This document shows, piece after piece, positions 20,809-63,252 of a stretch of DNA of 64,000 nucleotides; positions within the stretch are counted from its first letter, which is position 1; each line of letters starts with the position of its first letter. The DNA comes from Clostridia bacterium (GTDB lineage Bacteria; Bacillota; Clostridia; Christensenellales; Aristaeellaceae). The position numbers and the translations under genes were made by a program. The notes beneath the pieces were generated by a model. It was not told the origin of the DNA. It made no database searches and was given only the letters and a program-made list of their open reading frames with translations. The stretch is from contig JAFSOC010000014.1 in the NCBI GenBank assembly GCA_017447185.1, positions 1 to 64,000 on the forward strand, read 5' to 3'.

Positions 20809-22959
20809 TTATTCCGTACTCAGTTCCTCTACGTCCTGTATGGAAATATTCTTCGAGTTCTTCTCGTAATAAGAAGATATATCCATGGTTATATCTCCCT
20901 CCCAGGAAGAATCCGTGATATGCATGCCGGTTCCGTCCCAGGTCATCTTCACCCGTTCCAGGCGTACCTGCCGGATAAAAACATCATAGAGTACATATTC
21001 CAGTTCATAGTTTCCCGGCGGCAGCGGGGTCTTTTCAATGTTCACCATCCTCTGGAAGGTCAGCGGATCGCTCGGCTCATAATCCCCGGACAGCAGGCCA
21101 TCCTCCGATACCACGGGGTAAATCAGGTTGAATTCCTGCCCTGTCACACTGGAAATCGGCTTTGTATTCCGGTTGAACATCTGGGCGTCTGCGTTGAATC
21201 CCTGCCACAGGCCGTAGACTTCATAGGTATCCTTTTTCCAGCGGTATCCGCTTCGCAGATTCCATCTCCTGGCATCCACGGAAATCGGAATATTATACAG
21301 CATATCATAGTTTCCGTTCATGGGAATCGTTAACATTTCCAGGTGACACAGTTTTCCGTCAATCGATGCCCAGTTCCCACTGTTTTGCCAGTGATAAATC
21401 CCGTTCTCTGTCTCATAATAGGCAGGAATCAGGCCGAGGCTGATCATCTGGCCGCTTTCCTCATCCTCTTTGTAAAGGTTGCAGGTAACCGCTCCCAGAT
21501 AATTGTTCTCATCCTCCACTGAAAATTCCGGAATTCCGTCTTCCCCTGTCGTTTTGTGAATCGTGATGGTGCTTCCCGGAAGCTCCGCCATTTCCGGCAG
21601 CTTCTCCACCTGCTGATAAACCTCATCCGGCGCGGTCCATGGACTGATGGCATCCAGCAGGGCAAGATAATTGGGGCTCGGACAGTTCCTTGCATATACG
21701 TCCAGCTCAGGAAGCGTGAAATTCGTTGCGTAGCAGAAAGAGATTCCCCTGGCCGCAGGTTTTCCCGCCCCTCGCAGGCTGTAATCCACCACCTCCGCCA
21801 GGGCATCCTGCATTTCCCACTGCAGGGTTTCACCCGCCACGCTCCGCAGGGATTGCTGAAACAGAATTCCTGCCAGATCCATCATATTGTCCGATCCGTT
21901 TCCGTACTGTTCCGTATGGAAAACGCTGCGGACAATACTTGAAAGGAGAAGTGGATACTTCACATAAAGCTCATTCATTCTCGCAAAGAATTGGTCGAAG
22001 TTTTTTTCCAGACGTTCCAGTTTGGAGAGATTGATCACCGACCAGGTCATCATTTCCCGGCTTTGCTCATCATCCTCATTGGCAAATTTGATCTGCGTCA
22101 TGTCACAGACCCATCGGCCCAGCATCCGCCCGTCAGCGTCGGTAACATAAAGCAGTTCCTGCATCCAGTCCCCGAGGGCTGTTCCCTTGGCGGGCACCGT
22201 CTCCTGTGACGCGATCATCCAGGAGGCATACTCCCGAACCGCGCTGGCAGTTTCGATATTGGCCATCATACAGGCATCAAACAGAATGGCTTCAAAATGT
22301 ACGCCTCCGGCTGCCAGGGCTTCCCTCAGTTCATCCAGGGCCATATAATCCCCGTCAAACAGTTCATCGATGAACAGGCCCGTCTTGCTCCCGCCGCCAT
22401 GATCCCAGAGAATCAGGGCATATTTCTTTGCCGGGCGGTTTTCCTTCCCCCAGGCGATAAATTCTGCCAGGGTTCCGGCTTCGGCCATGCTGGCCAGCGG
22501 TTTTTCCCGGAGCATCCGGAATTCACCGGTTTCGGTGCCTTTCCCCGGGATATATTCCCAGTCCTGCAGGCAGTCGGTCCGGATCTCCATTCCCAGGTCC
22601 TGTGCATGCCATTCGGAAGCTCCGCCTGTTTCCATCAGAATATTGACTTTTCCCGGCAGCTTCACCTGCAGATCGGGAATATTCATCACGTCCGGAATAA
22701 TGATTCCAATCCCGTTTTCCGGTTCATGCACCCCGGCAAGCTCCTGAAGATTCCCTGTTGCAAACCCGTACTGTGATTCCAGATCGGAACCGCACACATA
22801 AATCAGTACAGTCCATTCATCTTCTTCATTTCCGGACGCCGCTGCTGTTTCCTCCGCTGCCGCTCCGCAGAAGCCGGCAATAAACAGTCCCAGCATGACT
22901 GCCATGCAGCTCAGAAAAAACAGGATTCTTCGGATTCCCTTTTCAGGAATTGCTTTCAT
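20809..22959 (-). CDS. Secreted clostripain-family (C11) cysteine peptidase
   Basis: A 716-residue predicted extracellular protease. Residues 11-35 form a signal peptide or membrane anchor. The catalytic dyad of the C11/caspase-like fold is visible: His187 in LILWDHGGGS and Cys230 in LFDACMM, each after a hydrophobic beta strand as in clostripain. Clostripain-type enzymes cut after Arg or Lys (family knowledge). About 480 residues follow the catalytic core, more than in minimal family members, and contain beta-rich segments of unknown role. The ATG at 22959 is chosen because it overlaps the stop of the upstream frame (ATGA coupling) and is followed at once by the signal peptide; the AGGAG lies 13 nt upstream, a long spacing. 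It sits just upstream of the giant adhesin gene, so a role in processing surface proteins is possible but unproven. Confidence 0.85.
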   Translation of the reverse strand: MKAIPEKGIRRILFFLSCMAVMLGLFIAGFCGAAAEETAAASGNEEDEWTVLIYVCGSDLESQYGFATGNLQELAGVHEPENGIGIIIPDVMNIPDLQVKLPGKVNILMETGGASEWHAQDLGMEIRTDCLQDWEYIPGKGTETGEFRMLREKPLASMAEAGTLAEFIAWGKENRPAKKYALILWDHGGGSKTGLFIDELFDGDYMALDELREALAAGGVHFEAILFDACMMANIETASAVREYASWMIASQETVPAKGTALGDWMQELLYVTDADGRMLGRWVCDMTQIKFANEDDEQSREMMTWSVINLSKLERLEKNFDQFFARMNELYVKYPLLLSSIVRSVFHTEQYGNGSDNMMDLAGILFQQSLRSVAGETLQWEMQDALAEVVDYSLRGAGKPAARGISFCYATNFTLPELDVYARNCPSPNYLALLDAISPWTAPDEVYQQVEKLPEMAELPGSTITIHKTTGEDGIPEFSVEDENNYLGAVTCNLYKEDEESGQMISLGLIPAYYETENGIYHWQNSGNWASIDGKLCHLEMLTIPMNGNYDMLYNIPISVDARRWNLRSGYRWKKDTYEVYGLWQGFNADAQMFNRNTKPISSVTGQEFNLIYPVVSEDGLLSGDYEPSDPLTFQRMVNIEKTPLPPGNYELEYVLYDVFIRQVRLERVKMTWDGTGMHITDSSWEGDITMDISSYYEKNSKNISIQDVEELSTE

Positions 22960-23345
22960 TGGTCCAATGCTTCTCCTCTTTCGTTTTTTCCCTCCTGACC
23001 TTTGTACAGAAGGCACATCATGGTAATGTCGTCGAACTGTGGTGCAACCAGGGAGGAAACCAGACAGGCAGTCAGCGCAATTCCGTAATACTTCTGTGCC
23101 TGCTCGTCATTATCCTGGCCGATTTCGTTGGAAGCGGAAATCGCCGCGCCGGAGACAAAAAACGAACCAAGAATGCACAATACCAGATAGACCGGCACGC
23201 ACAGGTTGATCGCAGTCAGGCCCGCCGCTCCGATCAGCTGGCCGACGATCATTCCATCTGCGATAATGTTCGCACATCCGCTCAGAATGGAGAGCATGCA
23301 CGGAATCAGCGCACCCCTGTATGCTTTTTTCAGGAAGTCTTTGCT
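22956..23345 (-). pseudogene. Chimeric remnant: MATE transporter front joined to PP2C/SpoIIE phosphatase tail
   Basis: Reading the minus strand from about 23345, the frame gives FLKKAYRGALIPCMLSILSG and then GCANIIADGMIVGQ, the typical first helix region of MATE drug/Na+ antiporters, followed by a second hydrophobic helix. At about 23046 it passes directly into APQFDDITMMCLLYKG, the characteristic C-terminal strand of PP2C/SpoIIE-type Ser/Thr phosphatases. Roughly 380 residues of MATE and most of a phosphatase are missing. The upstream frame has a stop before any good start codon; the first in-frame ATG is 23297. Its stop codon overlaps the ATG of the protease gene. Best explained by an internal deletion that fused two neighbouring genes, or a former MATE-phosphatase fusion gene. 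The remnant may still be translated. Confidence 0.7.
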
Positions 23346-44884: not shown

Positions 44885-44895
44885 AGGCGGTGATC
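44885..44895 (+). promoter_or_regulatory. Extended ribosome binding site fixing a TTG start
   Basis: AGGCGGTGATC matches the complement of the 16S 3' end at all but one base and lies 3 nt before the TTG at 44899. This decides against the GTG at 44890. Confidence 0.7.
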
Positions 44896-44898
44896 GGA

Positions 44899-47265
44899 TT
44901 GGCGGAATGGATCATGGTCGTTGATGACGATCTGATCGTTTTGAAAAGCGCCGGGCAGATCCTCAGCAGGAACCATATGCGGGTAACAGGGTTCCAGTCG
45001 GGGGACGCGCTGCTCCGGTACCTGGAGGAGAACGGATTTCCGGATCTGATCCTGCTGGATATCAATATGCCCGGAATGAACGGATTTGAAACCCTGCAGA
45101 AACTCCGTGCCCTGGAAAAAGATAACCATGAGACCCCCGTCATCTTCCTGACGGGGGAATATGACCAGGAGTCGGAGGTGCGGGGGTTCCAGGCGGGGGC
45201 CATGGACTTCCTGCGCAAGCCCTTTGCCCCGGATATCCTGGTGGAGCGGATCCAGCGGGTCCTGCGTACCCAGAGCCGGATGAACCATTTTGAGCATGCC
45301 GCCGCCATTGACCGGCTGACGGGCATGCTGAACCGGGAGGCCGCGGAGGATAAGATGCGGACCCTCTGTGAGACGGAGACCGGCTTCCTCTGCGTGCTGG
45401 ACCTGGATACCTTCAAGTCCGTGAATGACCTTTACGGCCATGAGATGGGCGATAAGGTGCTGGAGCTGTTCTCCGGCCTCATGAAGAAGGAAATGCGCCA
45501 TGACGACGTCTGCGGCCGGATCGGCGGCGATGAGTTCGTCCTTTTCCTCCGGAATATGCAGAAGGAGGAGGAGCTCCGCCAGTTTATCTCCCGGATCAAT
45601 CAGTCCTATCAGTCGGATGTGGGCCTCCTGATCGGCAGCCAGCTGCAGGTGGGGGTCTCCGCCGGCGCGATTTCCGTTCCGGAGCACGGCCGGGATTACG
45701 CCACGCTTTTCGGCAAGGCGGATGAAGCCCTCTATTCCGTCAAGCAGAACGGGCGCCACGGCATCTGCATCGCGGAGACGCGCAAAAATGAGCCTTCCCG
45801 GCCTGGGGGCGAACTGACCCTGGAGGCGGTGACCTCCGTCCTGGAGGAGCGGACCGTTCCCTCCAGCGCCATGTGGATGGGTACGGACGCCTTTGTCAGT
45901 ATTTATCAGTATATGACCCGGTATATGGAGCGGTATCACGGCGTCGCCTACCGTACGCTCTTCACCGTGCGCATCCATAAGGAGAACTGCACCCCGAAGG
46001 AGCGGGCGGAGATCATGGGCGCCTTCCGCAGGATGATGCAGCATGCCCTGCGCTCGAGCGATGTCATGGTGGAGGTCAGCGACAACCAGCTCTTCCTCCT
46101 CCTGCCGGAGACCCGGGATTACGATATCGAGCGGGTGGTCCGCCGCCTGCTGTTCAGGTGGCGGGAGTCGGAATACAGCGCCTTCACCTCCGTTTCGTAT
46201 GAGACCGGCCATGTGCACCTGAACCGCGGCGAGCACGAAAAGGCCGGCTTCCAGCCCCCGGCGGACCTGGTGGTCATCGTGGATGACGACCGGATGAACC
46301 TGAAGGTGGCAGAGCATGTGCTTTCCCGCAATGACAATATGCAGGTGGCCTGCCTGACCTCCGGGTTTGAACTCATGGATTACCTGAAGGGCCATAAACC
46401 GGACCTGATCCTCCTGGATGTGAAGATGCCGGAGATGAACGGCTTTGAGACCATGGAGCGGCTGAAGAGCGGCGCCATGATCTACCGGGATATCCCCGTG
46501 ATCTTCCTCACCGCGGAGGATTCCCGTGAATCGGAGATCCTGGGCCTGAAGCTGGGGGCCATTGACTTTATCCGCAAGCCCTTTATCCCGGAGGTACTCT
46601 CCATGCGTGTCCGCAACGCCATCGAGCTGACCCGCCTGCAGTATCACCTGACCCAGGAGGTGGCCCGCAAGTCGGCGGAAAACAGCATGCTCTTCCTGCA
46701 TGTGGTCCGGGCCCTGGCGGAAGCCATCGACGCCAAGGATACCTACACCCACGGCCATTCCAGCCGGGTGGCGAAGTACGCCCGGGAGATCGCCCAGCGC
46801 TACGGCTATTCCTCGGAGGCCGTCAGCAATATCTATATGATGGCCCTCGTGCACGACGTGGGGAAGATCGGGGTCCCGGACGCGGTTATCAACAAGCCGG
46901 GAGCGCTCACGGAGGAGGAGTTTACCCAGATCAGGCAGCATCCGGTGCTGGGGGCGAAGATCCTGGAGGCGATCCGGGAGATGCCCTCCCTGTCCGTGGG
47001 CGCCCGGTGCCACCATGAGCGGTATGACGGCCGGGGATACCCGGACGGGCTTGCCGGCGCTTCCATTCCGGAGGAGGCGCGGATCATCGCCGTGGCCGAC
47101 GCGTATGACGCCATGACCAGCCGGCGCTCCTACCGGGAGGCGCTGCCCCAGGCCGCCGTGCGGTCGGAGATAGCGTCCGGCGTCGGCACCCAGTTCGATC
47201 CGAACTTTGCGAAGATCATGCTGCAGATCATGGATGAGGATCCGGATTACACTTTCCGCGAATAA
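44899..47265 (+). CDS. Dual-receiver GGDEF and HD-GYP c-di-GMP enzyme
   Basis: A 788-residue cytoplasmic regulator. Residues 1-122: receiver 1 (Asp54, Lys107). Residues 130-290: diguanylate cyclase domain with an intact GGDEF at 209-213 and an inhibitory site RHDD at 200-203. Residues about 310-440: a second, degenerate GGDEF-like domain with SDNQLFLLLP in place of the signature. Residues 455-580: receiver 2 (Asp507, Lys560). Residues 595-788: HD-GYP phosphodiesterase with His652-Asp653, HHE 705-707 and GYP 713-715. It can in principle both make and break c-di-GMP. The start is TTG at 44899: AGGCGGTGATC just upstream matches the full anti-Shine-Dalgarno almost perfectly, and the GTG at 44890 lies inside that site. 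Confidence 0.93.
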   Translation: MAEWIMVVDDDLIVLKSAGQILSRNHMRVTGFQSGDALLRYLEENGFPDLILLDINMPGMNGFETLQKLRALEKDNHETPVIFLTGEYDQESEVRGFQAGAMDFLRKPFAPDILVERIQRVLRTQSRMNHFEHAAAIDRLTGMLNREAAEDKMRTLCETETGFLCVLDLDTFKSVNDLYGHEMGDKVLELFSGLMKKEMRHDDVCGRIGGDEFVLFLRNMQKEEELRQFISRINQSYQSDVGLLIGSQLQVGVSAGAISVPEHGRDYATLFGKADEALYSVKQNGRHGICIAETRKNEPSRPGGELTLEAVTSVLEERTVPSSAMWMGTDAFVSIYQYMTRYMERYHGVAYRTLFTVRIHKENCTPKERAEIMGAFRRMMQHALRSSDVMVEVSDNQLFLLLPETRDYDIERVVRRLLFRWRESEYSAFTSVSYETGHVHLNRGEHEKAGFQPPADLVVIVDDDRMNLKVAEHVLSRNDNMQVACLTSGFELMDYLKGHKPDLILLDVKMPEMNGFETMERLKSGAMIYRDIPVIFLTAEDSRESEILGLKLGAIDFIRKPFIPEVLSMRVRNAIELTRLQYHLTQEVARKSAENSMLFLHVVRALAEAIDAKDTYTHGHSSRVAKYAREIAQRYGYSSEAVSNIYMMALVHDVGKIGVPDAVINKPGALTEEEFTQIRQHPVLGAKILEAIREMPSLSVGARCHHERYDGRGYPDGLAGASIPEEARIIAVADAYDAMTSRRSYREALPQAAVRSEIASGVGTQFDPNFAKIMLQIMDEDPDYTFRE

Positions 47266-53230: not shown

Positions 53231-53270
53231 CAAAAGCAGCCAGAGCGCATCACACACGCCCCGGCTTTTT
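53231..53270. terminator. Terminator of the polymer operon and the PfkB gene
   Basis: On the minus strand AGCCGGGGCG pairs with GCGCUCUGGCU (10 bp with two G-U pairs) and is followed by GCTTTTGTTG. On the plus strand the same hairpin is followed by TTTTT. It ends two convergent transcripts. Confidence 0.7.
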
Positions 53271-53302
53271 AAGTCACAAATACTAAAACTAATAACTAAA
53301 AA

Positions 53303-55015
53303 CTACTTCAGGTCTTCCGAAAGGGATACGAACTTCAGCGGAGAATTCCGCCTTTCCATCTCCATCAGCAGCATATCCACCGCATCTGCAGTATAGAGGC
53401 TGTTCTGGCTCATGTGCATAACAAGCACGGCCCCACTCTTTGTATTGTTGATCAGCGATCGGTACAGGCCTTGTACGTTCGTCGCCTTATAGTCCTCCGT
53501 GCTGAAGCTCCCGCTGACACTGTAGTGGAAACCGCAATCCAGCACCGTCTCCAGGCCGATCCGGCTGACCGCCAGCGTCGGCGGCCGGAACAGGACCGCC
53601 AGGGCCGGTCTTCCATCGATTTCGATATCACCCACGATCCGCTGCAGTTTGTCCCAGCTGAGCATAAGGTCCTTCTGCAGTTCCCGTGCTTCCTCTTCCG
53701 TCAGCGTGGTGAACACCTTGCCGTTCCCCGTATCATGGCTCAGCGGGAAGTGCGCGTCCGTATGGCAGGCAATCGTATGTCCCGCCATGGCGATCGCCCG
53801 CAGCAGGTTCGGGTTGTAGTCCACGTTGTTCGTCCGCACGAAGAAGGTGGCCTTTGCCCCGTGCTTCTCCAGCACCTTCAGCAGCTTCGTCAGCGTCTCG
53901 TCCGGTCCCCAGTCGTCGAAAGTCAGGAAAACATGATTTTCGCTGTTCTGGATGAATCCCTTCCGGTCCAGCGTATACACTTCCTGGGCCGTGAATCCGG
54001 GCAGGAAATTCACACTGTTTACCCAGTCCGTGCCGATATACCGCTTCCGGATCTCTTCCAGCGGGTCAAGACCTTCCAGATGCCCGGGATGAATCGCGTT
54101 CAGCAGCTCCGGCAGGATCTGCTCATCCTTCAGCGGATAGGTGTACTGCATCTCCATGTTGCCCAGCATTGCAGCCAGGCTCTTCACCGGATAAATATTC
54201 TTCTGGGACACAATCGCCTTGATGTAGTCTGCCAGCACTGTATTGCTGTACTGGAACAGTCCCATCTGGAAGCTGACAATCTCGCCCCGCTGCAGCGCCA
54301 CATTGTTGTATTCGCTGAAGACCGCCGACAGGATCTCCTCCGGCTTCGTCAGCCGGCTTACGTTCGCGGGCATCAGGTCCGCCAGGAAGCTGATCAGCGG
54401 ATATCCGCCCATCGCCGCCACCTGCCGGTGGCTCTCCGGCGGTTCTCCATATCCCGTCCGCACATACACTTCGCCCATGTATCCCATGGAGCGAAGGATT
54501 TTTTCGTTCTCCTGCACGCTTTCCAGCATTCCCCGGACCGTCAGGCGTGAATCCTTTTCCACCAGAATGCCGATCTCATGCCCCGCACGGATGATGCGGC
54601 TCACATCGTCCTGGAAATTGCTGAGGTCATCCCCCTTCACGAAGAAGACCGCCGGCGCCTGGATATCTTCCAGTGCCTGCAGCACCGAGGGCAGCTCGCC
54701 GTTCTCCGGACTGTAGTTGAAGGTCAGGATAATGCCCTCTTCCGCCGTATAGATCCGGGTAATCACATCCGCCAGGACTGTTTCGCCGTCCGTCTCCGGA
54801 TCCGGCGTGGGCGCCGGCGTCGCCGTCGGCCCGATCTCTACTGTGCGCATCGGGTTGTAGGCCCGGAAGGTGGGACTCGGCTGCGGTTCGGGAGTCGGTG
54901 TCGGCCTTCCGGCGTTCTCCAGGAAAGGATGCTCTTCGAAATAGAATGCCCCGAAAATCATTCCGGCAATCAGTACCAGCAGCACCACCGTTGTCCGGAT
55001 CTGCCGCATTCTCAT
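53303..55015 (-). CDS. Membrane-anchored polysaccharide deacetylase with two NodB domains
   Basis: A 570-residue protein. A membrane helix at about 7-25 and a Pro/Thr linker (PTPTPEPQPSPT) tether it outside the cell. Residues about 85-330 are a degenerate NodB fold: the motif TFDD is replaced by TFNY. Residues about 355-560 are an intact NodB fold with TFDDWG (Asp367, Asp368), HTDAH (His418, His422) for metal binding, and RPP. Such enzymes remove N- or O-acetyl groups from GlcNAc, MurNAc, chitin or PNAG (family knowledge). Last gene of the operon; its ATG overlaps the stop of the GH18-like gene (ATGA) and AAGGAGGTG lies 7 nt upstream. The neighbouring synthase suggests a GlcNAc polymer as substrate. 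Confidence 0.88.
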   Translation of the reverse strand: MRMRQIRTTVVLLVLIAGMIFGAFYFEEHPFLENAGRPTPTPEPQPSPTFRAYNPMRTVEIGPTATPAPTPDPETDGETVLADVITRIYTAEEGIILTFNYSPENGELPSVLQALEDIQAPAVFFVKGDDLSNFQDDVSRIIRAGHEIGILVEKDSRLTVRGMLESVQENEKILRSMGYMGEVYVRTGYGEPPESHRQVAAMGGYPLISFLADLMPANVSRLTKPEEILSAVFSEYNNVALQRGEIVSFQMGLFQYSNTVLADYIKAIVSQKNIYPVKSLAAMLGNMEMQYTYPLKDEQILPELLNAIHPGHLEGLDPLEEIRKRYIGTDWVNSVNFLPGFTAQEVYTLDRKGFIQNSENHVFLTFDDWGPDETLTKLLKVLEKHGAKATFFVRTNNVDYNPNLLRAIAMAGHTIACHTDAHFPLSHDTGNGKVFTTLTEEEARELQKDLMLSWDKLQRIVGDIEIDGRPALAVLFRPPTLAVSRIGLETVLDCGFHYSVSGSFSTEDYKATNVQGLYRSLINNTKSGAVLVMHMSQNSLYTADAVDMLLMEMERRNSPLKFVSLSEDLK

Positions 55016-56061
55016 TCTCCCGCACCTCCTTCCGTTTTCTGCATATCAAGAATCTGCTGATTCCATTCCTCCGTCCGGTTTCCGCCCAGACGGAAGAAGT
55101 CGAATTTCTCAAATCCGTATTCCTGCAGGATCTTCATCCATCCCCGCAGGGTTTCCGCGTCCGCATACCATACCGTATGTTCTTCTCCATCCTGCAGGTA
55201 GGTTCCCCGCATGGCGCCACTTTCCAGGTCGCGGCCCGGCCGGATGTTCCGGCTCCGGAAAATTTCCTCCGCTTCCTTTTCCGATACTTCGCGCTCCGCC
55301 CGGTTTCCCTTCCAGTCGTATCCGCCGGTGGCCAGTGCCATGCCGCAGTCCTTCCGGCCCTGGTAAAGCTTCGCGACCTTCTCCAGGAATCCGCGGTCCG
55401 CCTTCGGTCCCGGCCCTGAATGGTATCCGTAAAGGCTGTAGCACATGATGCTGTATTCCGGCCCGACCGGCAGCTCCGTGTAAAGGATGCTATCCCATTC
55501 CAGGCACACCCGCAGCGCGATTCCCCGGGCCTCCAGGGCGCTGTACAGCTCCTGGATAAATGCTGTGAACTTCTGCCACAGTTCATAGTCCCCGTGGATA
55601 TTCTCGTAGTCGATCTCGATTCCTTTGATCTGCCACTCCTCCGCCAGGCTTACCAGCTCCCGGATATGGCTTCCCCGGCTTTCCGGCGTCGCCAGCAGGT
55701 CCCACAGCAGCTGCCGGTCCTTGTTGGAGTATCCGCCTTCCTTTTTCGCCAGGTCGTTTACCACCGACAGCCAGATCCGTTCCGCCGGGAATGCTGCCTG
55801 GATCTTCTGCAGCATTTCCTGCGCTTCCTGCTCGATCACCACATATTCCTCCGGATCGAACAGCGCCTCGAAGGCGATCAGCCGGTCCGGCATGGGATCC
55901 AGGGCCGCTGCCTCTTCAATCCCGGCTTCCGCATCCCAGTAGACGATCCACACCCCGCAGGAAACCCGCCCTTCCCGGGCAGCCTCCGCCAGCGCGAACC
56001 CCGGCGCGACAACGGCAAGCGCCGCAAGCCCGCTCAGGATCCTCTTCCATGTTGTTCTCAC
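55012..56061 (-). CDS. Secreted GH18-like glycoside hydrolase
   Basis: A 349-residue exported protein. Residues 1-25 form a signal peptide beginning at a GTG (MRTTWKRI as translated), cut after ALAEA. The mature domain is a TIM-barrel-like fold of the GH18/chitinase type: strand VSCGVWIVYWD, the catalytic strand IKGIEIDYENI in which the Asp and final Glu of the DxxDxDxE motif are kept but the first Asp is Glu, and MCYSLYGYHSGPGP. GH18 enzymes cut beta-1,4 GlcNAc chains; PgaB, which exports PNAG, carries a related hydrolase domain beside a deacetylase (family knowledge). The GTG at 56061 is chosen: GGAGG lies 8 nt upstream, and it overlaps the previous stop (GTGA). It could trim the operon's polymer. 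Confidence 0.8.
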   Translation of the reverse strand: MRTTWKRILSGLAALAVVAPGFALAEAAREGRVSCGVWIVYWDAEAGIEEAAALDPMPDRLIAFEALFDPEEYVVIEQEAQEMLQKIQAAFPAERIWLSVVNDLAKKEGGYSNKDRQLLWDLLATPESRGSHIRELVSLAEEWQIKGIEIDYENIHGDYELWQKFTAFIQELYSALEARGIALRVCLEWDSILYTELPVGPEYSIMCYSLYGYHSGPGPKADRGFLEKVAKLYQGRKDCGMALATGGYDWKGNRAEREVSEKEAEEIFRSRNIRPGRDLESGAMRGTYLQDGEEHTVWYADAETLRGWMKILQEYGFEKFDFFRLGGNRTEEWNQQILDMQKTEGGAGE

Positions 56062-58115
56062 TCTGCTTTCCTCCCCAGGCCGACCAGACGCAGCAGCCAC
56101 TCAAAGAAGTTCTCCCTTGGCTTTTCTTCCTTCTCCGCCGTCTCTTCCGGTTTTTCTTCCTCTTCCGGTTCATCCGGCGCGGCGTAGGAATAACATTCGT
56201 TTCCGTTTCCGTCCCGGACGGTCAGGTTGATGAACACCGCGTCATACACGTCATCGTCCAGGTTCTCCCGGCTGAAGCGCTCCACGTCGTTGGATACCGC
56301 GCCGGTCAGCAGAAGGCTGCGTCCGGGAGTCGCCGGCACATGCAGGTTTTCCACCGCCATTTTGTCGTCAATCCAGACATTCAGCACGTTATCCTTCAGC
56401 TGGATCCGCAGTTTCCGCTCGTCCCGCTGGGAAATATCCAGGTCCGGGTAGTAAGGCTCGCCGCCCTCCTCGATATTGACCACCACCATGGCCTCCAGGT
56501 CCGGCAGGATGGCTTCCGCCTCCCGCACCCGGGCAGGATCCTCGTCAAACTCGATGATGGCTTTCTGCAGGGCAATGAGCCCGTCCAGTTCATTCTGTTC
56601 CTTGCTGATGAAGGGGCCGCCGTCGAATTCGAACAGGCTCAGTTCATGCAGCTTCACATCCGGGTCCGCCATGGAGCGGATCACCAGGTAATTGTTCTCC
56701 AGCGCAATGGAAATGCCGGTGGCTCCGTCCTCTGTGGCTCCCAAGACCACGCCCTGTTTTCCGACCACGTTTCCCTGCAGGGTCACCGTGATGTCCGGAT
56801 TCTCGATAACACCGGTTTTGAGGCGCATGGCAGCTTCCCCGTAGGGCAGGGTCGTCAGGATAATACGGTCGCCTTCCATGTCCGCGACACCGCCGCTGAC
56901 CGTCCACTGTTCCAGGGCTTTCAGGTCACCCGCCAGGAAGCTCACGTTGTCCCCCGTATCGTCCCAGATGCGCATCATCAGGTGGTTCGGGGAGAAGTAA
57001 TGCCGGGATTCCAGCCGGGTCAGGTCCCAGATGCTGCTTTCCGTCGTGTTCAGGCAGCTTCCCTGCCGGTTGAAGTTCATTTTGAACAGTTTGGTCAGTT
57101 CCTTCTCGTTCTGATCCGACACGAGGGCATCATTGCCGAAGGCCCGGGTGTTGGAGTGCATCAGCACATACAGGGCCGGGATCTCGCCGACGGCGGAATA
57201 GTCTTCCCGCATCTGCTCATAGTCCCAGGAAATCCGGCGGCGCATCTCTGTTTCGGTTTCCTCCCGCAGCCGGTCCTTGTCCCGCAGGAAGTCCATCAGG
57301 TAATGGTTGTAGTCCCTGCGCAGGTATTCGCGGACCGCCTGGTGTTCCTTCTGGTTCAGGTGGCCGAAATAATTCCGGTAGCGGTCAAAAACGTTGATAT
57401 AGCTCAGCCGGTATCCGTTCGAGCCAATCTCCCAGAACGTGGTGCCGATCAGGTCCTTCACGTTCTTCTCCGTGATGTACAGCCCTTCCTCATCCTTCAG
57501 GTTTCCGGAATAGGTGCACATCGTTGCCTTGTAGTTGTAACGTTCCAGGGTCGGCTGGGTCAGCAGGGCCGTATTGTAGATGCCGTCCTCAAACATCAGC
57601 AGCATCGCGTTTTCCGGCAGGCCCTTCTGCTCGTTGTAATAATCCAGGATATCCTGCTGCCGGATCGTGACATACCCGGACCGTGCCAGCAGGGCTGCCT
57701 GTTTTTTGAAATTCTCCAGGTTCACAATCTTGCTTTCCAGCTTTTCGCTGGTGTTCACCCCGTTGTAGGAAACGGAGATGAACCGTGCGCCTTCAGGCGC
57801 CTGCACCGCCGGAACCGCCGACTGCGGCAGCACCGACCGGGCGGACACGGCATACAGGGCCGCTCCGTTCACCGGGCTGACGCCGATGGCATCCTTCAGT
57901 ACATTTCCGTCCCTGTCCTTCACCGTTCCGTCCGCGGTCTGGGTGATCCCGGTTTCCGCGGCCGGTTCTGTCTTCACTTCCGGCTTGGGTTGGGTTTCAA
58001 TGGACCAGATAACCCACAGGACAACAAACGCCAGCAGCAGGAGCTGCAGGATGGTCCGGATGACCTTCCAGACGTTTTTCCTTCTCAGGCCTTTTTTGTC
58101 AAGACGTATGGCCAT
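56058..58115 (-). CDS. Membrane-anchored NodB-like protein with jelly-roll module
   Basis: A 685-residue protein. Basic N-terminus, membrane helix at about 19-38, then an extracellular part. Residues about 110-370 form a NodB-like domain with LLMFEDGIY at 172-180, where the first Asp of the deacetylase motif is Glu. Residues about 390-640 form a beta-sandwich module like the LamG/concanavalin type (HYFSPNHLMMRIWDD, ITVTLQGNVVGKQGVVLGAT, trimmed), which usually binds glycans. A Glu/Pro-rich tail ends in a short amphipathic helix (FFEWLLRLVGLGRK). The ATG at 58115 follows AAGGAG by 7 nt and overlaps the synthase gene by 17 nt. Probably binds or modifies the polymer outside the membrane; catalysis is doubtful. 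Confidence 0.78.
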   Translation of the reverse strand: MAIRLDKKGLRRKNVWKVIRTILQLLLLAFVVLWVIWSIETQPKPEVKTEPAAETGITQTADGTVKDRDGNVLKDAIGVSPVNGAALYAVSARSVLPQSAVPAVQAPEGARFISVSYNGVNTSEKLESKIVNLENFKKQAALLARSGYVTIRQQDILDYYNEQKGLPENAMLLMFEDGIYNTALLTQPTLERYNYKATMCTYSGNLKDEEGLYITEKNVKDLIGTTFWEIGSNGYRLSYINVFDRYRNYFGHLNQKEHQAVREYLRRDYNHYLMDFLRDKDRLREETETEMRRRISWDYEQMREDYSAVGEIPALYVLMHSNTRAFGNDALVSDQNEKELTKLFKMNFNRQGSCLNTTESSIWDLTRLESRHYFSPNHLMMRIWDDTGDNVSFLAGDLKALEQWTVSGGVADMEGDRIILTTLPYGEAAMRLKTGVIENPDITVTLQGNVVGKQGVVLGATEDGATGISIALENNYLVIRSMADPDVKLHELSLFEFDGGPFISKEQNELDGLIALQKAIIEFDEDPARVREAEAILPDLEAMVVVNIEEGGEPYYPDLDISQRDERKLRIQLKDNVLNVWIDDKMAVENLHVPATPGRSLLLTGAVSNDVERFSRENLDDDVYDAVFINLTVRDGNGNECYSYAAPDEPEEEEKPEETAEKEEKPRENFFEWLLRLVGLGRKAE

Positions 58116-59922
58116 TTCCGCTCTCCTTCTCCTCTGTGCCGGCGCCGCCCGCGTTTGCTGCAACGTCCTCTTTCTTCTTACCGCCGCTGCGGGTTCCCCA
58201 GTGGCTCACCCAGAAGGTGAACCAGGCCCAGGGCATCTGCCACAGCAGGATTCCCTCATAGTACAGGCAAAACAGGATCCCGTAGAACCACAGCGAACTT
58301 CGCTTCAGGATCAGCTGGGCGAAGCTCATCAGCAGCGCCATCAGCAGGATACCCAGCAGGAAGGCCGCCGGGAATGTATGCCGCACGATCGGGATGTATG
58401 CCAGGTTGTACAGCACGATCAGCGGCGCAATCATCGGAACAATCAGGCCCAGATAGAAGAACAGGGCCATCAGCGGTTCCTTCCGCCACATGAATTTGCC
58501 TGCCATCACCGATTCCCGCAGCCAACTGCGCTTCCAGCGCATCTGCTGCTTCAGAAAAACCTTGTGACGGTTTGGAACGATGGTGGAGCAGATCGCTGTA
58601 TCCTGGTAGTAGGTCCGGTGGTGGCGCACGATGAAGTTGGTCAGGCTCCGGTCATCCCCGAAGGTGGCCTTCTGGCCCATGAACTTCTGGTGCAGCCACT
58701 TGTCCGCCACCTCGCGCACCGCGGAAAGCCGGTAACAGCTCAGCGGTCCGCTCAGGCACATGACGGAATCGAAGTACGCTTCTGCCGCCTTCATCATCCG
58801 GAAGGAAATATAGTAGCGGACGCTCTGCATCTTCGTCAGGTGATTCGTATAGGTATTCGCCACGTCGGTGCGGCCGGATACGCCGCCCATCTTCGGATCC
58901 TTGAAGGGTTGCACCAGGTTGCGGATTGCGTCCGGTTCCAGGAAGGAGTCGGAATCCACGAAGGTGATCAGCTCCGTATTCGCGTTCCGGATGCCGATGC
59001 CCATGGCTTCGCGCTTACCCTGGTTATACTGCTGGAAGAATACCCGGATTCTCCGGTCCAGCCCGAAGCGCTTTCCTTCCTCGCACAGTGATGCCACCGT
59101 TTCCTTGATCACTTCCGGAGACCGGTCGGAGGAACCGTCGTCCACAATGATCAGTTCCAGTTTTTCCGGCGGATAGTCCTGGTTGATGCAGGACACAATC
59201 GTCCGCCGGATCCACGTCTCTTCGTTGAAGCAGGGAATAACAATCGTCACAGAAGGCGCGTAGTCCGGATCCACCGCCACCGGCCGGTACAGCATTCCGA
59301 AGAAATAACGGCTCAGGAGGAACGCGCAGGTCAGCAGGCTGTATCCGTACAGCACCGCGTTCGCGCCGAAATTGGTCACCGATTCCACACGCATCAGCAG
59401 GATCGCCAGTGTGATCAGGAACAGGAAACCGGCCGCCAGGGTGAAATACATGTTGCTGGTTCCCCGCCGGGCCTTGTACAGCGGTTCTGCAAACTGCAGC
59501 GCGATCCAGTGGTCCTCGTGATGAATGCGCACGACTTTGCTTTTCAGCCGGTACTTTTTCTCCGTGCCTTCCTGCAGCATGCCGGGCTCAAGCTCAAACC
59601 GAAGGCGGAGGGTATCCCCTTCTTCTATCAAAGCGGAGTCGAAATATTCCGGCAGGTACAGCTTCACACCTGTCTGGGAAATGTTGGCGCAGCGGCAACG
59701 AAGCCTGATCCCGTTCTTGCCTTTTACCATCACGAACAGGTTCGTTTCCTCATACCGCATGCCCGCGAACCGGGCATATTCCGGCCGGTGCGCATCATCC
59801 TGCATGTTGTTCCGGCGATCGTTGTTGGTCCGCTGGAGCGTGGGATCCGGCACGAAACTCAGCTGCCGCCGGTCTTCCACGGTGTGCAGCATCGAATCGC
59901 GGATCCCTTTCTGTTTACTCAT
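58099..59922 (-). CDS. PilZ domain fused to a hyaluronan/chitin-synthase-like glycosyltransferase
   Basis: A 607-residue processive synthase. Residues about 45-145 are a PilZ-type domain with CANISQTGVKLYL (the NxSxxG motif) and several upstream Arg residues, the usual c-di-GMP sensor. Helices at about 160-178 and 188-208 precede a GT2 catalytic domain: VDDGSSD (259-265), DSDS (323-326), SGPLSCYR (391-398), GDDRSLTN (422-429), KQQMRWKRSWLRES (458-471). The SGPLS-YR, GDDR-LTN, KQQ-RW and RES elements match streptococcal HasA and rhizobial NodC more closely than cellulose synthase. About three C-terminal helices follow (485-565). Such enzymes make beta-linked GlcNAc-containing chains from UDP-sugars and pass them across the membrane. 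GAGGAG lies 7 nt before the ATG. It overlaps the next gene. Confidence 0.9.
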   Translation of the reverse strand: MSKQKGIRDSMLHTVEDRRQLSFVPDPTLQRTNNDRRNNMQDDAHRPEYARFAGMRYEETNLFVMVKGKNGIRLRCRCANISQTGVKLYLPEYFDSALIEEGDTLRLRFELEPGMLQEGTEKKYRLKSKVVRIHHEDHWIALQFAEPLYKARRGTSNMYFTLAAGFLFLITLAILLMRVESVTNFGANAVLYGYSLLTCAFLLSRYFFGMLYRPVAVDPDYAPSVTIVIPCFNEETWIRRTIVSCINQDYPPEKLELIIVDDGSSDRSPEVIKETVASLCEEGKRFGLDRRIRVFFQQYNQGKREAMGIGIRNANTELITFVDSDSFLEPDAIRNLVQPFKDPKMGGVSGRTDVANTYTNHLTKMQSVRYYISFRMMKAAEAYFDSVMCLSGPLSCYRLSAVREVADKWLHQKFMGQKATFGDDRSLTNFIVRHHRTYYQDTAICSTIVPNRHKVFLKQQMRWKRSWLRESVMAGKFMWRKEPLMALFFYLGLIVPMIAPLIVLYNLAYIPIVRHTFPAAFLLGILLMALLMSFAQLILKRSSLWFYGILFCLYYEGILLWQMPWAWFTFWVSHWGTRSGGKKKEDVAANAGGAGTEEKESGNGHTS

Positions 59923-59949
59923 GCCTGTTCTCCTCTTCTTCGCTTCTTT

Positions 59950-61599
59950 TTATTCCGGTACATTCTGCATCAGGAAATCGATCCATGCCTGGCATCCCGC
60001 GTCATTCAGATGGGTTCCGTAGCTCATCCGGTCCAGGCAGTAATCGTCGCGAAGGGCACCTTCCTCTGTCCGCAGCGCAAAGGCCGGATCCAGGTAGGTC
60101 AGCCCCGTCCGCGCGCACAGCGCCGCCAGTTTCAGGTTGAAACGGAACAGCTGGGTATTGGAAGGCGTGTTGTTTTTTCCGGCCACCGCGGGGAAGCTTC
60201 CCTGCAGCACCAGCCGGATTCCCGGGTTCTTCTGCCGGATCCGGTAGATCAGCAGCTTCAGGTTGCTGAAGAACTGATCGTCCAGGTAGGCCTGGCGGGA
60301 TTCAAACCGGAGCATCAGGTAGGCTGTCTTCGCACCCAGCTTCGCCAGCGCATCCTCCACCGCCATCTTTTCCCCGTCCACTGCCGGCAGGTTCGTGCCC
60401 TCCGGATCGTGGTTGACCGCCTGCTCAATGGTCAGCCGGGAGGCGTACAGGAAGCGGGCGTTCCCCAGGTATTCCGGATCGGTTTCCCGTTTCCATTCCA
60501 CGTAGCTTTCCAGGCTCGCCACATCGCTGGCGCCGACGAAAACCACATCGTTGAAATCCGTATTTTTGCCCTGCCGGGTCCGTCCGACATTCACGGGCTC
60601 TTCCGTCACCGGCCAGGGATAGAGGTCCGCGTCAAAGCGGGTGGTTTCCTCTTCGGTCAGCTCCCGCTTCTCCGGCAGCAGCGTCACCGCGTACCTGGCC
60701 AGTTCATCAGGCATCACAATCTTGTAATTCAGCTTTTTCAGCGCCGCGATCAGCCACCTCATCTGGTCAAGGGGCAGGGTGTCCACCTCCACCCGGCGGT
60801 TGTCGCCCACCTCGCCGATGGAGGGGCTCGGATCGATAGCCGGCTTTTCATCCAGTGCCGGGCCGGATCCGATGAATTCGCTCAGGTCCAGTTCCTGTCC
60901 CAGCTTCACGGAAACGATGCTGCCCCGGATCAGGTTCCGGGCATAGGCTTCCGCGTCGTCGGAGGAGGAGAAGGACTTATGGTTCAGGTACAGCGTCGGC
61001 ATCACGGCCGCTTCCAACCCGGCGGTGCTGACCGCCCGCAGCAGCGTTTCCGTATATTCCGAGCCGTTCATCCGGACATACCGGGGCGTCTGACCGATGG
61101 CCCGGTAAATCAGTTCCTGCGTTTTCCGGAAAGCGTAGATATTCTCATCCACGCCGTTGTTTTCCATTTTTTTCGCGCCGGTCAGCCCGTAGTTGCCGAC
61201 CTCGCAGCCTGCCATGCGGATTTTCTTCACAAGCTCCGGACACTCATCCGCCACTTTCCCGGTAATGAAGAACACGGCGGCCACCTTCAGCTCCTGCAGC
61301 GTTTTCAGCAGCTCCTCCATGGAGGCTTCGTCCGTGAACCCTTCAAACACCAGGGAGATCACATCCTGGTCCGTCTCCACGCCCGTCAGCACCGGAGCAG
61401 GATCGCTGGTCAGCGCGGTCGTCGGGACCGGCGTCACCGAAGGCCGGATCGTCGGCGTGGGTGTGGGTTCCGGCGTGGGTGTGGGACTGGGTGTCGGGGT
61501 TTCGAGATGGAGCAGGTTCTGCACCGGCGCGCACCCGCTCAGAAGCAGCAGGTACAGGCACAGTATCAGCGCGAGTACCTTTACGGAATGCTTCCTCAC
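59950..61599 (-). CDS. Lipoprotein with degenerate NodB fold and SGNH-like domain
   Basis: A 549-residue lipoprotein. Lipobox LSGC with Cys23, then a Pro/Thr linker (PTPSPTPTPEPTPTPT). Residues about 75-330 resemble a NodB barrel (ISLVFEGFTDEASM, AAVFFITGKV, YVRMNGSEY) with every metal-binding Asp of motif 1 lost. Residues about 345-549 resemble SGNH/GDSL acyl esterases, with FVGASDVASLES in block I (GAS-D in place of GDS) and a late His in YGTHLNDAGC. SGNH proteins such as AlgJ/AlgX move O-acetyl groups on exopolysaccharides (family knowledge). Start is GTG at 61599 overlapping the previous stop (GTGA). It lies 27 nt before the synthase gene. Likely a surface modifier of the polymer, possibly non-catalytic in its first half. 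Confidence 0.75.
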   Translation of the reverse strand: MRKHSVKVLALILCLYLLLLSGCAPVQNLLHLETPTPSPTPTPEPTPTPTIRPSVTPVPTTALTSDPAPVLTGVETDQDVISLVFEGFTDEASMEELLKTLQELKVAAVFFITGKVADECPELVKKIRMAGCEVGNYGLTGAKKMENNGVDENIYAFRKTQELIYRAIGQTPRYVRMNGSEYTETLLRAVSTAGLEAAVMPTLYLNHKSFSSSDDAEAYARNLIRGSIVSVKLGQELDLSEFIGSGPALDEKPAIDPSPSIGEVGDNRRVEVDTLPLDQMRWLIAALKKLNYKIVMPDELARYAVTLLPEKRELTEEETTRFDADLYPWPVTEEPVNVGRTRQGKNTDFNDVVFVGASDVASLESYVEWKRETDPEYLGNARFLYASRLTIEQAVNHDPEGTNLPAVDGEKMAVEDALAKLGAKTAYLMLRFESRQAYLDDQFFSNLKLLIYRIRQKNPGIRLVLQGSFPAVAGKNNTPSNTQLFRFNLKLAALCARTGLTYLDPAFALRTEEGALRDDYCLDRMSYGTHLNDAGCQAWIDFLMQNVPE

Positions 61600-61877
61600 T
61601 TGTCCTGTCCCCTTTCCTGCTCTTCCTGCGGCGTTTCCTGCTGCTGTTTCCGCAGGGAAGCCGCAAGCTCCGCGTTCTTCACCATCAGGGTTTGATAGGC
61701 ACCCGTCATATCCTTCAGCTGTTCCGCCAGGTCCCGGACCTCCTGCCGCAGCTTCTCCGCCTGTTGTTCCGCTTCTTCACGGCGGCGCTCCGCCTCCCGG
61801 TAGGCCACTCCCAGCGCATGCATCTGCAGGGAGATGTCGTCCATCTCGCTGACCGGTATATCATTCCTGTTATCCAT
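61596..61877 (-). CDS. Small coiled-coil protein
   Basis: A 93-residue cytoplasmic protein. Residues about 15-80 form one long coiled coil (YREAERRREEAEQQAEKL, then ELAASLRKQQQ). The acidic N-terminus reads MDNRNDIPVSEMDD. No signal peptide or membrane helix. The ATG at 61877 is chosen because the frame further up is inside the previous gene; it overlaps that gene by 8 nt, and its stop overlaps the lipoprotein start. Position between the membrane protein and the lipoprotein suggests a scaffold role for the synthase complex. No family recognised. Confidence 0.7.
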   Translation of the reverse strand: MDNRNDIPVSEMDDISLQMHALGVAYREAERRREEAEQQAEKLRQEVRDLAEQLKDMTGAYQTLMVKNAELAASLRKQQQETPQEEQERGQDK

Positions 61878-62469
61878 AAATAAACAACCCCTCAAAAAGT
61901 CTTTTCAGCCACCGCAGGATCCCGGTCTTCCACAGGAAGAAACCGATGGACGCCAGGAACGCAATCGCCAGGAACGTATTGAAAATACTGTGGGCCACAC
62001 TTCGCTCCGACGTCATGTCCTCCGGATCTTCCGGATCCGCCATGGTGTGCACCCGGTCCGCCTGCATCCCGTTCGGGAACCAGACAGCCGTTTTTTCCGG
62101 ATCGTAAGCCGCGGTGATCCGGATATTGCGGATCTCCTCCGGAAGATCCTCCGGCCTGATTTCCTGGTCTGCCTGCGGTTTTGCCGCGGCAGCCGGCGCA
62201 ACCGCTGCGGCCACGGGTTTGCTGTCCGCACCCGGGGTAACCATCCTGCTGGAAAGAATGCAGCAGGTGGCGATCAGCATGGTTTCGCAGTGTTCCGGCA
62301 GCGGCTGGTATTCATATTTTTCATGGATGAATGCGAGCACCCGGTGTTCCAGTTCCTTTGCCGCTTCCGTATCGCCCATCAGCAGGACGCACTGCTGCCG
62401 GATCACGTCTCCGTAAGCAGCGTGAAATTCTTGCAAATCCTGCTCTGTCAGCAGGGTTCCTGTTGCCAT
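61870..62469 (-). CDS. Membrane protein with sigma-region-2-like N-terminus
   Basis: A 199-residue protein. Residues about 5-70 (EQDLQEFHAAYGDVIRQQCV, LLMGDTEAAKELEHRVL) have the helix pattern and spacing of sigma-70 region 2 in ECF factors, but no region 4 follows and no DNA-binding arginines are obvious. Residues 75-105 are an Ala/Pro/Lys linker. A short beta segment (RNIRITAAYDPEKTAVWFPNG) precedes a membrane helix at about 161-181 and an amphipathic tail (KTGILRWLKRLF). The N-terminus would be cytoplasmic. AAGGAGG lies 8 nt before the ATG. It starts 35 nt after the TetR gene. The sigma resemblance is tentative; it may simply be a helical membrane scaffold. Confidence 0.65.
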   Translation of the reverse strand: MATGTLLTEQDLQEFHAAYGDVIRQQCVLLMGDTEAAKELEHRVLAFIHEKYEYQPLPEHCETMLIATCCILSSRMVTPGADSKPVAAAVAPAAAAKPQADQEIRPEDLPEEIRNIRITAAYDPEKTAVWFPNGMQADRVHTMADPEDPEDMTSERSVAHSIFNTFLAIAFLASIGFFLWKTGILRWLKRLFEGLFIYG

Positions 62470-62504
62470 ATTCCCGGCCTCCTTTTTCCTATGCTCCCCT
62501 GTCT

Positions 62505-63152
62505 TCACAGCTCACAAAACCGGTGAAGCAGCAGCTCTTTCTGGAATTCCAGTTCTTTTTCGTCATCCGACTCCGGGTTGAAATAAACCAGTCCGACCGC
62601 ATAGCGGGTCACCGCCGCCAGCATCAGGTGGACCAGTGTGGAGAACATAACGCCTTCCGAAATTCCCTTCCGCAGCGTCCCGTCCTTCTGTCCTTTCTCA
62701 TAGATCCGGACAAACCTCTCCTCCAGGGCGCCGATCACCCTGGTGTAGGGCTGGGTCTTCTCCGCGGGGATCTGTTCGCTCTGGAGATACACATTGAAGA
62801 ACTGGTTGAACCGCAGCAGGTCCTTGTGGTTCCGGTACAGGTCCAGGAACGCTTCCAGGAACATGTTCAGATTCTCCGCCGCAGTGATTCCCCGCTGCTC
62901 GAAAACGTCCATCCTGCCCATCTGCTCCGTAAGGTAATTCTTCCAGGCCCACGTGGCGATGGCCAGCACCAGTTCCTGCTTGGTGCTGTAATACCGGTAA
63001 AGGGATGCGATTCCGATGCCGGCGGCTTTTGCCACATCCGTCATGGTCACACTTGCAATCCCCCTCCTGGCAAAGACCGCAAACCCTTCTTCGAGAATCC
63101 GCTGGTTTTTGGCGGCCATCTCGATGGCGTCCTTTTCCTGATTTCTGCCCAT
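62505..63152 (-). CDS. TetR/AcrR-family transcriptional regulator
   Basis: A 215-residue regulator. Residues about 15-60 are the TetR helix-turn-helix: ILEEGFAVFARRGIASVTMT, DVAKAAGIGIASLYRYYSTK, the second helix-turn being the typical recognition motif. The remaining residues form the helical ligand and dimer domain (FNQFFNVYLQSEQIPAEK). It reads in the same direction as the polymer operon, 35 nt ahead of its first structural gene. Its own promoter is covered by palindromes, which indicates autoregulation. The ribosome site (AGAAAGAGAA) is weak, which would keep repressor levels low. The ligand is unknown. Confidence 0.9.
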   Translation of the reverse strand: MGRNQEKDAIEMAAKNQRILEEGFAVFARRGIASVTMTDVAKAAGIGIASLYRYYSTKQELVLAIATWAWKNYLTEQMGRMDVFEQRGITAAENLNMFLEAFLDLYRNHKDLLRFNQFFNVYLQSEQIPAEKTQPYTRVIGALEERFVRIYEKGQKDGTLRKGISEGVMFSTLVHLMLAAVTRYAVGLVYFNPESDDEKELEFQKELLLHRFCEL

Positions 63153-63181
63153 TTCTCTTTCTATGCCCCCTTCGGCAACAG

Positions 63182-63198
63182 TAATAGATCATCTATTA
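63182..63198. promoter_or_regulatory. Putative TetR operator 1 (perfect palindrome)
   Basis: TAATAGATCATCTATTA: two perfect 8-bp half sites around a central C, 30 nt upstream of the TetR start and downstream of the promoter. A further dyad GATAAG-CGC-CTTATC lies next to it at 63200-63214. Confidence 0.7.
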
Positions 63199-63223
63199 CG
63201 ATAAGCGCCTTATCACGGTGGGC

Positions 63224-63252
63224 ATCCTATCATAATAGATGCTCTATGTCAA
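63224..63252 (-). promoter_or_regulatory. Promoter of tetR and probably the whole polymer operon
   Basis: On the minus strand TTGACA (63252-63247), 17 nt, TAGGAT (63229-63224). The spacer contains the second operator-like dyad, so a bound TetR dimer would block RNA polymerase directly. Confidence 0.65.
63233..63249. promoter_or_regulatory. Putative TetR operator 2
   Basis: TAATAGATGCTCTATGT carries the same TAATAGA half site as operator 1 and a TCTAT opposite half, with two mismatches. It lies in the promoter spacer. Confidence 0.55.

Follow-up and report, generated by a model that had tools for sequence, protein, structure and literature searches.

The DNA analyzed here is a 64,000-nucleotide stretch (the window) at the start of contig JAFSOC010000014.1 from a Clostridia bacterium of the Aristaeellaceae (assembly GCA_017447185.1), whose minus strand carries, at 53,303-63,152, an apparent exopolysaccharide operon of eight genes centered on a glycosyltransferase of family 2 (GT2) with a PilZ domain. 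Successive intergenic gaps are 35, -8, -4, 27, -17, -4, and -4 nt, and all eight genes lie where the original prediction, made from the sequence alone, had placed a minus-strand series overlapping or at most 35 nt apart. Its calls of TetR, PilZ-GT2, GH18-like, SGNH-like, and NodB-fold domains agree with the Pfam and NCBIfam results (Table 1), and the SGPLSCYR, GDDRSLTN, and KQQMRW motifs that it had read in the synthase are present. P0002 and P0003 match no Pfam or NCBIfam family above cut-off. At the place of P0003, ten nearer relatives (including L019 7465-8370 and L031 7693-8427) have a longer coiled-coil gene whose start presumably resembles that of DivIVA; the L031 protein has no Pfam match.

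Table 1. Features of the operon and its surroundings (window coordinates)
Feature	Position	Strand	Evidence
Promoter-like site TTGACA-17-TAGGAT	63224..63252	-	Motif scan
Perfect 9+1+9 palindrome, candidate TetR operator, promoter to TetR start	63181..63199		
TetR-family regulator P0001	62505..63152	-	Pfam TetR_N 2.6e-14; homologue in 3/80 loci
Small protein P0002, C-terminal hydrophobic segment	61870..62469	-	Homologue in 15/80 loci
Short coiled-coil protein P0003	61596..61877	-	
Putative lipoprotein P0004, NodB and SGNH domains	59950..61599	-	Polysacc_deac_1 2.1e-17; GDSL lipase 4.4e-9
PilZ-GT2 processive synthase P0005, hyaluronan synthase-like	58099..59922	-	Pfam, NCBIfam, solved relatives
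DRR...R...RR element, codons 17-37 of P0005, before PilZ barrel	59812..59874	-	Invariant 81/81
PilZ domain, residues 61-144 of P0005	59491..59742	-	Pfam PilZ 9.3e-6, above Pfam cut-off
GT2 catalytic domain, residues 223-465 of P0005	58528..59256	-	Pfam Glyco_tranf_2_3 1.6e-33
Membrane-anchored PgaB-like protein P0006, NodB fold	56058..58115	-	NCBIfam PgaB, below cut-off
Exported GH18-like glycoside hydrolase P0007, EIDYE kept	55012..56061	-	Pfam GH18 1.1e-7
Membrane-anchored double NodB protein P0008	53303..55015	-	Polysacc_deac_1 1.6e-31
Terminator-like hairpin, 13 pairs, 3' of last gene	53238..53266	-	Motif scan

Related loci were collected by a contig scan that gave 312 matches, of which the best 80 by similarity, many of them from assembled genomes, were kept; they belong to Clostridia (61), Negativicutes (12), Bacilli (3), and Tissierellia (1), three having no class. 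A core recurs among them that consists of a NodB-type protein, the PilZ-GT2 synthase, the PgaB-like protein, and the GH18 protein. The order synthase, PgaB-like, GH18 on one strand is found at 73 of these loci, and at the other seven the contig ends at most 42 bases from the last core gene found; gene order is kept well beyond the family of the window. A NodB-type gene is present at 78 of the 80 loci, on the opposite strand in one of them (L090), and the annotation of a Paenibacillus cellulositrophicus plasmid shows a series of deacetylase, GT2, deacetylase, and GH18. Within its own family, the synthase has a patchy distribution: it occurs in 7 of 120 genomes, the window's own included, and is absent from the four sampled genomes of the same genus; the PgaB-like protein was found in 2 of the 297 genomes of an order sample, again with the window's own. 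As six of the family genomes recur among the 80 loci, the two sets are not independent. The flanking GAF gene was found in 5/5 and the flanking kinase gene in 4/5 same-genus genomes, with both on one contig within 6 kb only in G026, and no conclusion about a simple unoccupied insertion site was drawn. In the GT2 tree, where two outside sequences have a branch length of 10 and join unsafely, two Lactobacillus species nest within a Clostridia clade, which suggests horizontal transfer.

The single promoter and single terminator claimed for the operon correspond to recognizable sites, but these calls rest on position, because the scans overall were not above chance (2 promoter sites against a mean of 3.4 in shuffles, and 10 terminators against 9.7). 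Where palindromes had been said to cover the promoter, one perfect palindrome lies between the promoter and the start codon. No matching palindrome was found 5' of the TetR gene in the nearest relative, L017, and a conserved TetR operator was rejected on this ground. A TetR gene is present, as claimed, but since only 3 of the 80 loci have one, TetR control is local and lies outside the conserved unit.

The best solved relatives of the synthase are hyaluronan synthases (HAS), at 3.4e-44 to 6.1e-40 with a 7-sequence profile as against 8e-16 for the next class, and at 5.6e-37 with P0005 alone. Among the NCBIfam profiles, NodC (190.9 bits, 3.3e-56, cut-off 550) and PgaC (114.8 bits, 4.5e-33, cut-off 422) score best, a HAS model not being among the 25 matches listed. 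Plain NodC or PgaC membership was rejected because these scores fall far under the curated cut-offs. By its scores the enzyme goes with HAS and NodC, and teichoic-acid and lipid glycosyltransferases, which score far worse, were likewise discarded. In all 81 sequences compared, GDDR, QQxRW (QxxRW), and WGTR occur in one GT2 protein. According to the available part of PMC11750622, WGT(S/R) is the gating loop in HAS, and chitin and cellulose synthases have a comparable gating motif, so that WGTR by itself is not decisive. The same part of that source describes Y288, F292, C307, W382, S385, D342, and R343 of XlHAS1 as surrounding the acceptor N-acetylglucosamine (GlcNAc) and R287 and R296 as lying near glucuronic acid (GlcA). 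The presumed counterparts of the first seven in P0005, matched through a CvHAS alignment and constant spacing, are Y370, F374, C389, W463, S466, D424, and R425, and those of the two Arg residues are R369 and K378, the latter a Lys instead of an Arg; all nine are invariant (81/81). In a Rhizobium etli NodC, position 369 is Glu and position 374 Cys, and the motifs read GEDR and WLSR; in a plasmid-borne Lactococcus enzyme encoded beside a nucleotide-sugar dehydrogenase, these two positions are Arg and Phe, and the motifs are GDDR and WGTR. Residues at these discriminating positions thus uphold the HAS side of the "HasA/NodC-like" label that the synthase had been given, and not its NodC side. The Lactococcus plasmid is mobilizable (L106 1105-3522, where the dehydrogenase gene adjoins the HAS-like glycosyltransferase gene), and related matches occur on two Enterococcus faecium plasmids.

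Flanking-gene clustering revealed a nucleotide-sugar dehydrogenase gene, similar to those of UDP-N-acetylhexosamine (UDP-HexNAc) 6-dehydrogenases, at 37 of the 80 loci, and at 31 of the 58 with 5 kb or more upstream. It is co-oriented in 37/37 cases, lies 100 bp or less from a core gene in 33, and stands before the SGNH, ND2, memb, or GT2 gene or after the GH18 gene. Its presence changes at least 12 times on the GT2 tree (65 scored rows), and the link was therefore repeatedly made or lost. For the first two of these dehydrogenases scanned, TviB gives 380-447 bits and the UDP-glucose dehydrogenases TuaD and AglM give 115-146; for the third, the values are 375 and 140-165. The best solved relatives are dehydrogenases of the HexNAc type. 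In L017, the gene lies between the TetR and membrane protein genes, where the window has none; the window operon has lost it, and a homologue with 65-69% identity is found elsewhere in the same genome, on contig C14.

The linked dehydrogenase points toward an acidic polymer instead of plain chitin or poly-N-acetylglucosamine (PNAG), and the product is probably a partly deacetylated, uronate-containing GlcNAc polymer; from the earlier expectation of a chitin-, PNAG-, or hyaluronan-like chain we retain the GlcNAc type and consider plain chitin and PNAG less likely. A neutral or cationic GlcNAc homopolymer, chitin- or PNAG-like and partly deacetylated, in which the dehydrogenase would be accessory and serve a variant polymer of certain lineages only, would agree with NodC and PgaC being the top NCBIfam profiles, with the PgaB-like and deacetylase genes, which suit PNAG, and with the dehydrogenase not being seen in the window operon or, over the stretches examined, at 43 of the 80 loci. 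We consider it rather unlikely, as it would leave aside the invariant R369 and K378 at the HAS glucuronate site, where a NodC has Glu, the recurrence of the dehydrogenase at several positions of the operon, and the dehydrogenase homologue in the window's genome. True hyaluronan (GlcNAc-GlcA) made under c-di-GMP (cyclic di-guanosine monophosphate) control would account for HAS being the closest solved relative and for nearly all the listed catalytic and channel residues being kept, but the higher scores of the dehydrogenase with TviB than with TuaD and AglM, its HexNAc-type solved relatives, and an identity of only about 30% to the plasmid HAS-like enzyme make it quite improbable.

As regards regulation, the PilZ domain keeps the [D/N]xSxxG motif at positions 80-85 of P0005 (D/N80, S82, and G85 in 81/81 sequences), and the N-terminal R18, R19, R31, R36, and R37 are equally invariant. 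The canonical RxxxR is absent, R56 being invariant and position 52 not an Arg in its eight commonest states (77/81). Because the first motif and the N-terminal Arg element are invariant, although RxxxR is missing from its usual position, gating by c-di-GMP through PilZ is likely, and the control originally proposed is kept with this reservation about its second motif. GGDEF domains, with 39 matches in the window's genome, were found in 8/8 carrier genomes tested (9 to 44 each), two Lactobacillus species included, and 5 of 61 genomes in a Lactobacillus sample have a GGDEF match at E < 1e-20. With the synthase in only 1 of these 61 genomes, namely the sample's center, a co-occurrence test has little power, and the statistic was dropped. 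Alternatively, the PilZ domain could be merely structural and control could be transcriptional, by TetR in the present case. This would fit the noncanonical RxxxR, the TetR gene and palindrome at the promoter, and RiGT2 of Romboutsia, a PilZ-GT2 protein with both PilZ motifs which, in the available part of PMC10374906, requires its PilZ domain for activity and does not bind c-di-GMP in vitro. Such a view is unlikely in light of the 81/81 conservation of the [D/N]xSxxG motif and of the five Arg residues, the richness in GGDEF of the carriers tested, among them two species of Lactobacillus, most sampled genomes of which have no strong match, and the scarcity of TetR among the loci.

Two further genes relate to c-di-GMP. 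A GGDEF protein of 358 codons is encoded about 1.3 kb past the window end on the operon's strand (L016 1239-2315, minus), and the operon's contig also encodes, at window positions 44890-47262 (plus), a protein combining GGDEF and HD/HD_5 domains with two response-regulator receiver matches; it is a candidate regulator of c-di-GMP turnover.

The three NodB-fold proteins of the operon contain four NodB domains, only one of which keeps the catalytic residues; the fold that had been assigned to them stands, and the idea of three working deacetylases was rejected, the catalytic residues being missing. The NodB domain of P0004 is devoid of the catalytic Asp (DD) and His, and its SGNH domain has the GDS serine replaced (GASD); a G[DG]S-like motif is found in 15 of 35 SGNH-type proteins. 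P0006 matches Pfam at 0.02, below cut-off, and NCBIfam PgaB at 1e-9, far below that cut-off, and 59/59 of its relatives match the NodB domain of PgaB. In this family, FEDG replaces DD in all 78 ungapped sequences, and NGYR stands at the expected metal His, Asp-Asp and the metal His being the sites expected in the PgaB deacetylase-hydrolase. A sequence search of its C-terminal half against solved structures gave no credible match, and four of the 59 relatives weakly match a concanavalin-like 3-keto-disaccharide hydrolase domain. In P0008, the first NodB domain has no DD and the second has TFDDW, HTDAH (HTxxH), and RPP; DDW/G and H[ST]xxH occur in one protein at 60 of the 80 loci, truncated loci included. 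Members of the GH18 family keep D151 and E153 (72/72), and the second Asp of DxxDxDxE is a Glu in 70/72. As only P0008 domain 2 and the GH18 protein keep their residues, the window operon likely has a single active deacetylase and a single active hydrolase, and the other NodB and SGNH proteins look like chain-binding pseudoenzymes.

The system had been described as Gram-positive, which is too narrow, since the two-membrane Negativicutes possess the locus together with a porin-like gene. Indeed, in the stretches examined, this gene lies 5' of the core at 12/12 Negativicutes loci and 0/68 others. Over its barrel region, the porin-like protein resembles solved SLH porins (4e-14), one member has a Pfam Porin_4 match, and that of Sporomusa malonica has TPR repeats matching the PNAG porin PgaA (1.5e-33).

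Taken together, these data lead us to favor, as the probable reading, a synthase-dependent exopolysaccharide system that is probably gated by c-di-GMP and makes a partly deacetylated, probably uronate-containing GlcNAc polymer. Operon anatomy, conserved synteny, and motif state are read directly from the sequences, and from them we infer the polymer make-up, the gating, and the division of labor. The PilZ-GT2 protein would polymerize UDP-GlcNAc and presumably UDP-N-acetylhexosaminuronic acid, c-di-GMP on its N-terminal PilZ domain would open the synthase, and the chain would leave through the enzyme's own membrane channel, as in hyaluronan synthase. Once outside, the chain could be guided or bound by the PgaB-like and NodB-SGNH proteins, whose NodB domains are catalytically degenerate, the C-terminal NodB domain of P0008 could strip some acetyl groups, and the GH18 protein could cut or clear chains; in Negativicutes, the chain would exit through the porin-like protein. 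The linked dehydrogenase would provide the acidic precursor, which in the window's genome the homologue on another contig may supply. Several points weigh against this reading: PgaC was compared by its profile, the TviB scores of the dehydrogenases are below the NCBIfam cut-off, the gene was not seen in the window operon or at the 43 loci mentioned, the canonical RxxxR is absent, RiGT2 has both motifs and does not bind c-di-GMP, one of the five Lactobacillus genomes with a strong GGDEF match lacks the synthase despite 11 such matches, and the association with the porin-like gene may have arisen once, because the 12 Negativicutes loci form one clade of the GT2 tree. More tentatively, it is possible that these loci represent a separate class of c-di-GMP-gated HAS-like enzymes with dead NodB guides, whose polymer would contain N-acetylhexosaminuronic acid (HexNAcA) and be partly de-N-acetylated, hence zwitterionic, and which would have spread horizontally among Bacillota with one or two membranes, gaining a porin-like part in Negativicutes.

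Elsewhere in the window, positions 1465-20556 (minus) form a single open frame of 6363 codons for a giant protein, with no Pfam match at 1e-4 in the two pieces scanned, and an adjoining gene (20812-23016, minus) encodes a clostripain-family (Peptidase_C11) protein.

To our knowledge, little has been established about the polysaccharides that form the matrix of gut Clostridia, Faecalibacterium, and rumen Selenomonas. The locus offers one testable system common to at least 80 species-level genomes, many of them from gut and soil Bacillota, leads one to expect a polymer, acidic or zwitterionic, that can be searched for, and allows a comparison in which one machine possibly serves one- and two-membrane envelopes. 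It would also be the first link of c-di-GMP to a HAS-like enzyme within the literature searched, in which, subscription papers and preprints being outside its scope, no published description of the locus was found.

By the scores and motifs tested, the gene set is not a member of the Pga, Ica, Bcs, or Nod systems, in line with the view that it resembled none of pga, ica, and bcs. With class I HAS (CvHAS and XlHAS1), the synthase shares GDDR and QxxRW of the GT2 domain, the WGTR gating motif, the acceptor-collar residues, and, with Lys in place of the second Arg, the basic channel-entrance residues, but it has an N-terminal PilZ domain, an operon with NodB, PgaB-like, and GH18 genes, and a dehydrogenase that seems specific for HexNAc. 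With Pga and Ica (PgaABCD and IcaADBC), the system has in common a processive GT2, a PgaB-related protein, a glycoside hydrolase fold, and, with two membranes, a porin-like gene; it differs in that the synthase reaches 115 bits against the PgaC cut-off of 422, the PgaB-like protein has no metal His, and GH18 is a separate gene. Moreover, it has PilZ for c-di-GMP sensing, whereas the pgaABCD proteins have no known c-di-GMP motif according to the available part of PMC8461298. BcsA and clostridial CcsA, as far as the accounts available go, likewise fuse PilZ to a processive GT2, but the PilZ domain of BcsA is C-terminal (PMC8461298, same part) and ours N-terminal, the BcsA/CelA match is weak, and no BcsB was recognized by Pfam or NCBIfam among the eight gene products. 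In the portions of the published descriptions at hand, Listeria Pss (pssA-E) and Lactobacillus acidophilus gts are also c-di-GMP-dependent Bacillota exopolysaccharide systems with a GT2 synthase, but in them c-di-GMP is sensed by a protein apart from the synthase, a degenerate GGDEF (PssE) or EAL (PdeB) one, and Pss includes an orthologue of BcsB. Romboutsia RiGT2 is again a PilZ-GT2 protein of a Gram-positive gut bacterium, but its PilZ domain is C-terminal with both motifs and it makes a (1,3;1,4)-beta-glucan (PMC10374906, available part). The system is predicted to resemble HAS in the working of its synthase and Pga in what happens outside the membrane.

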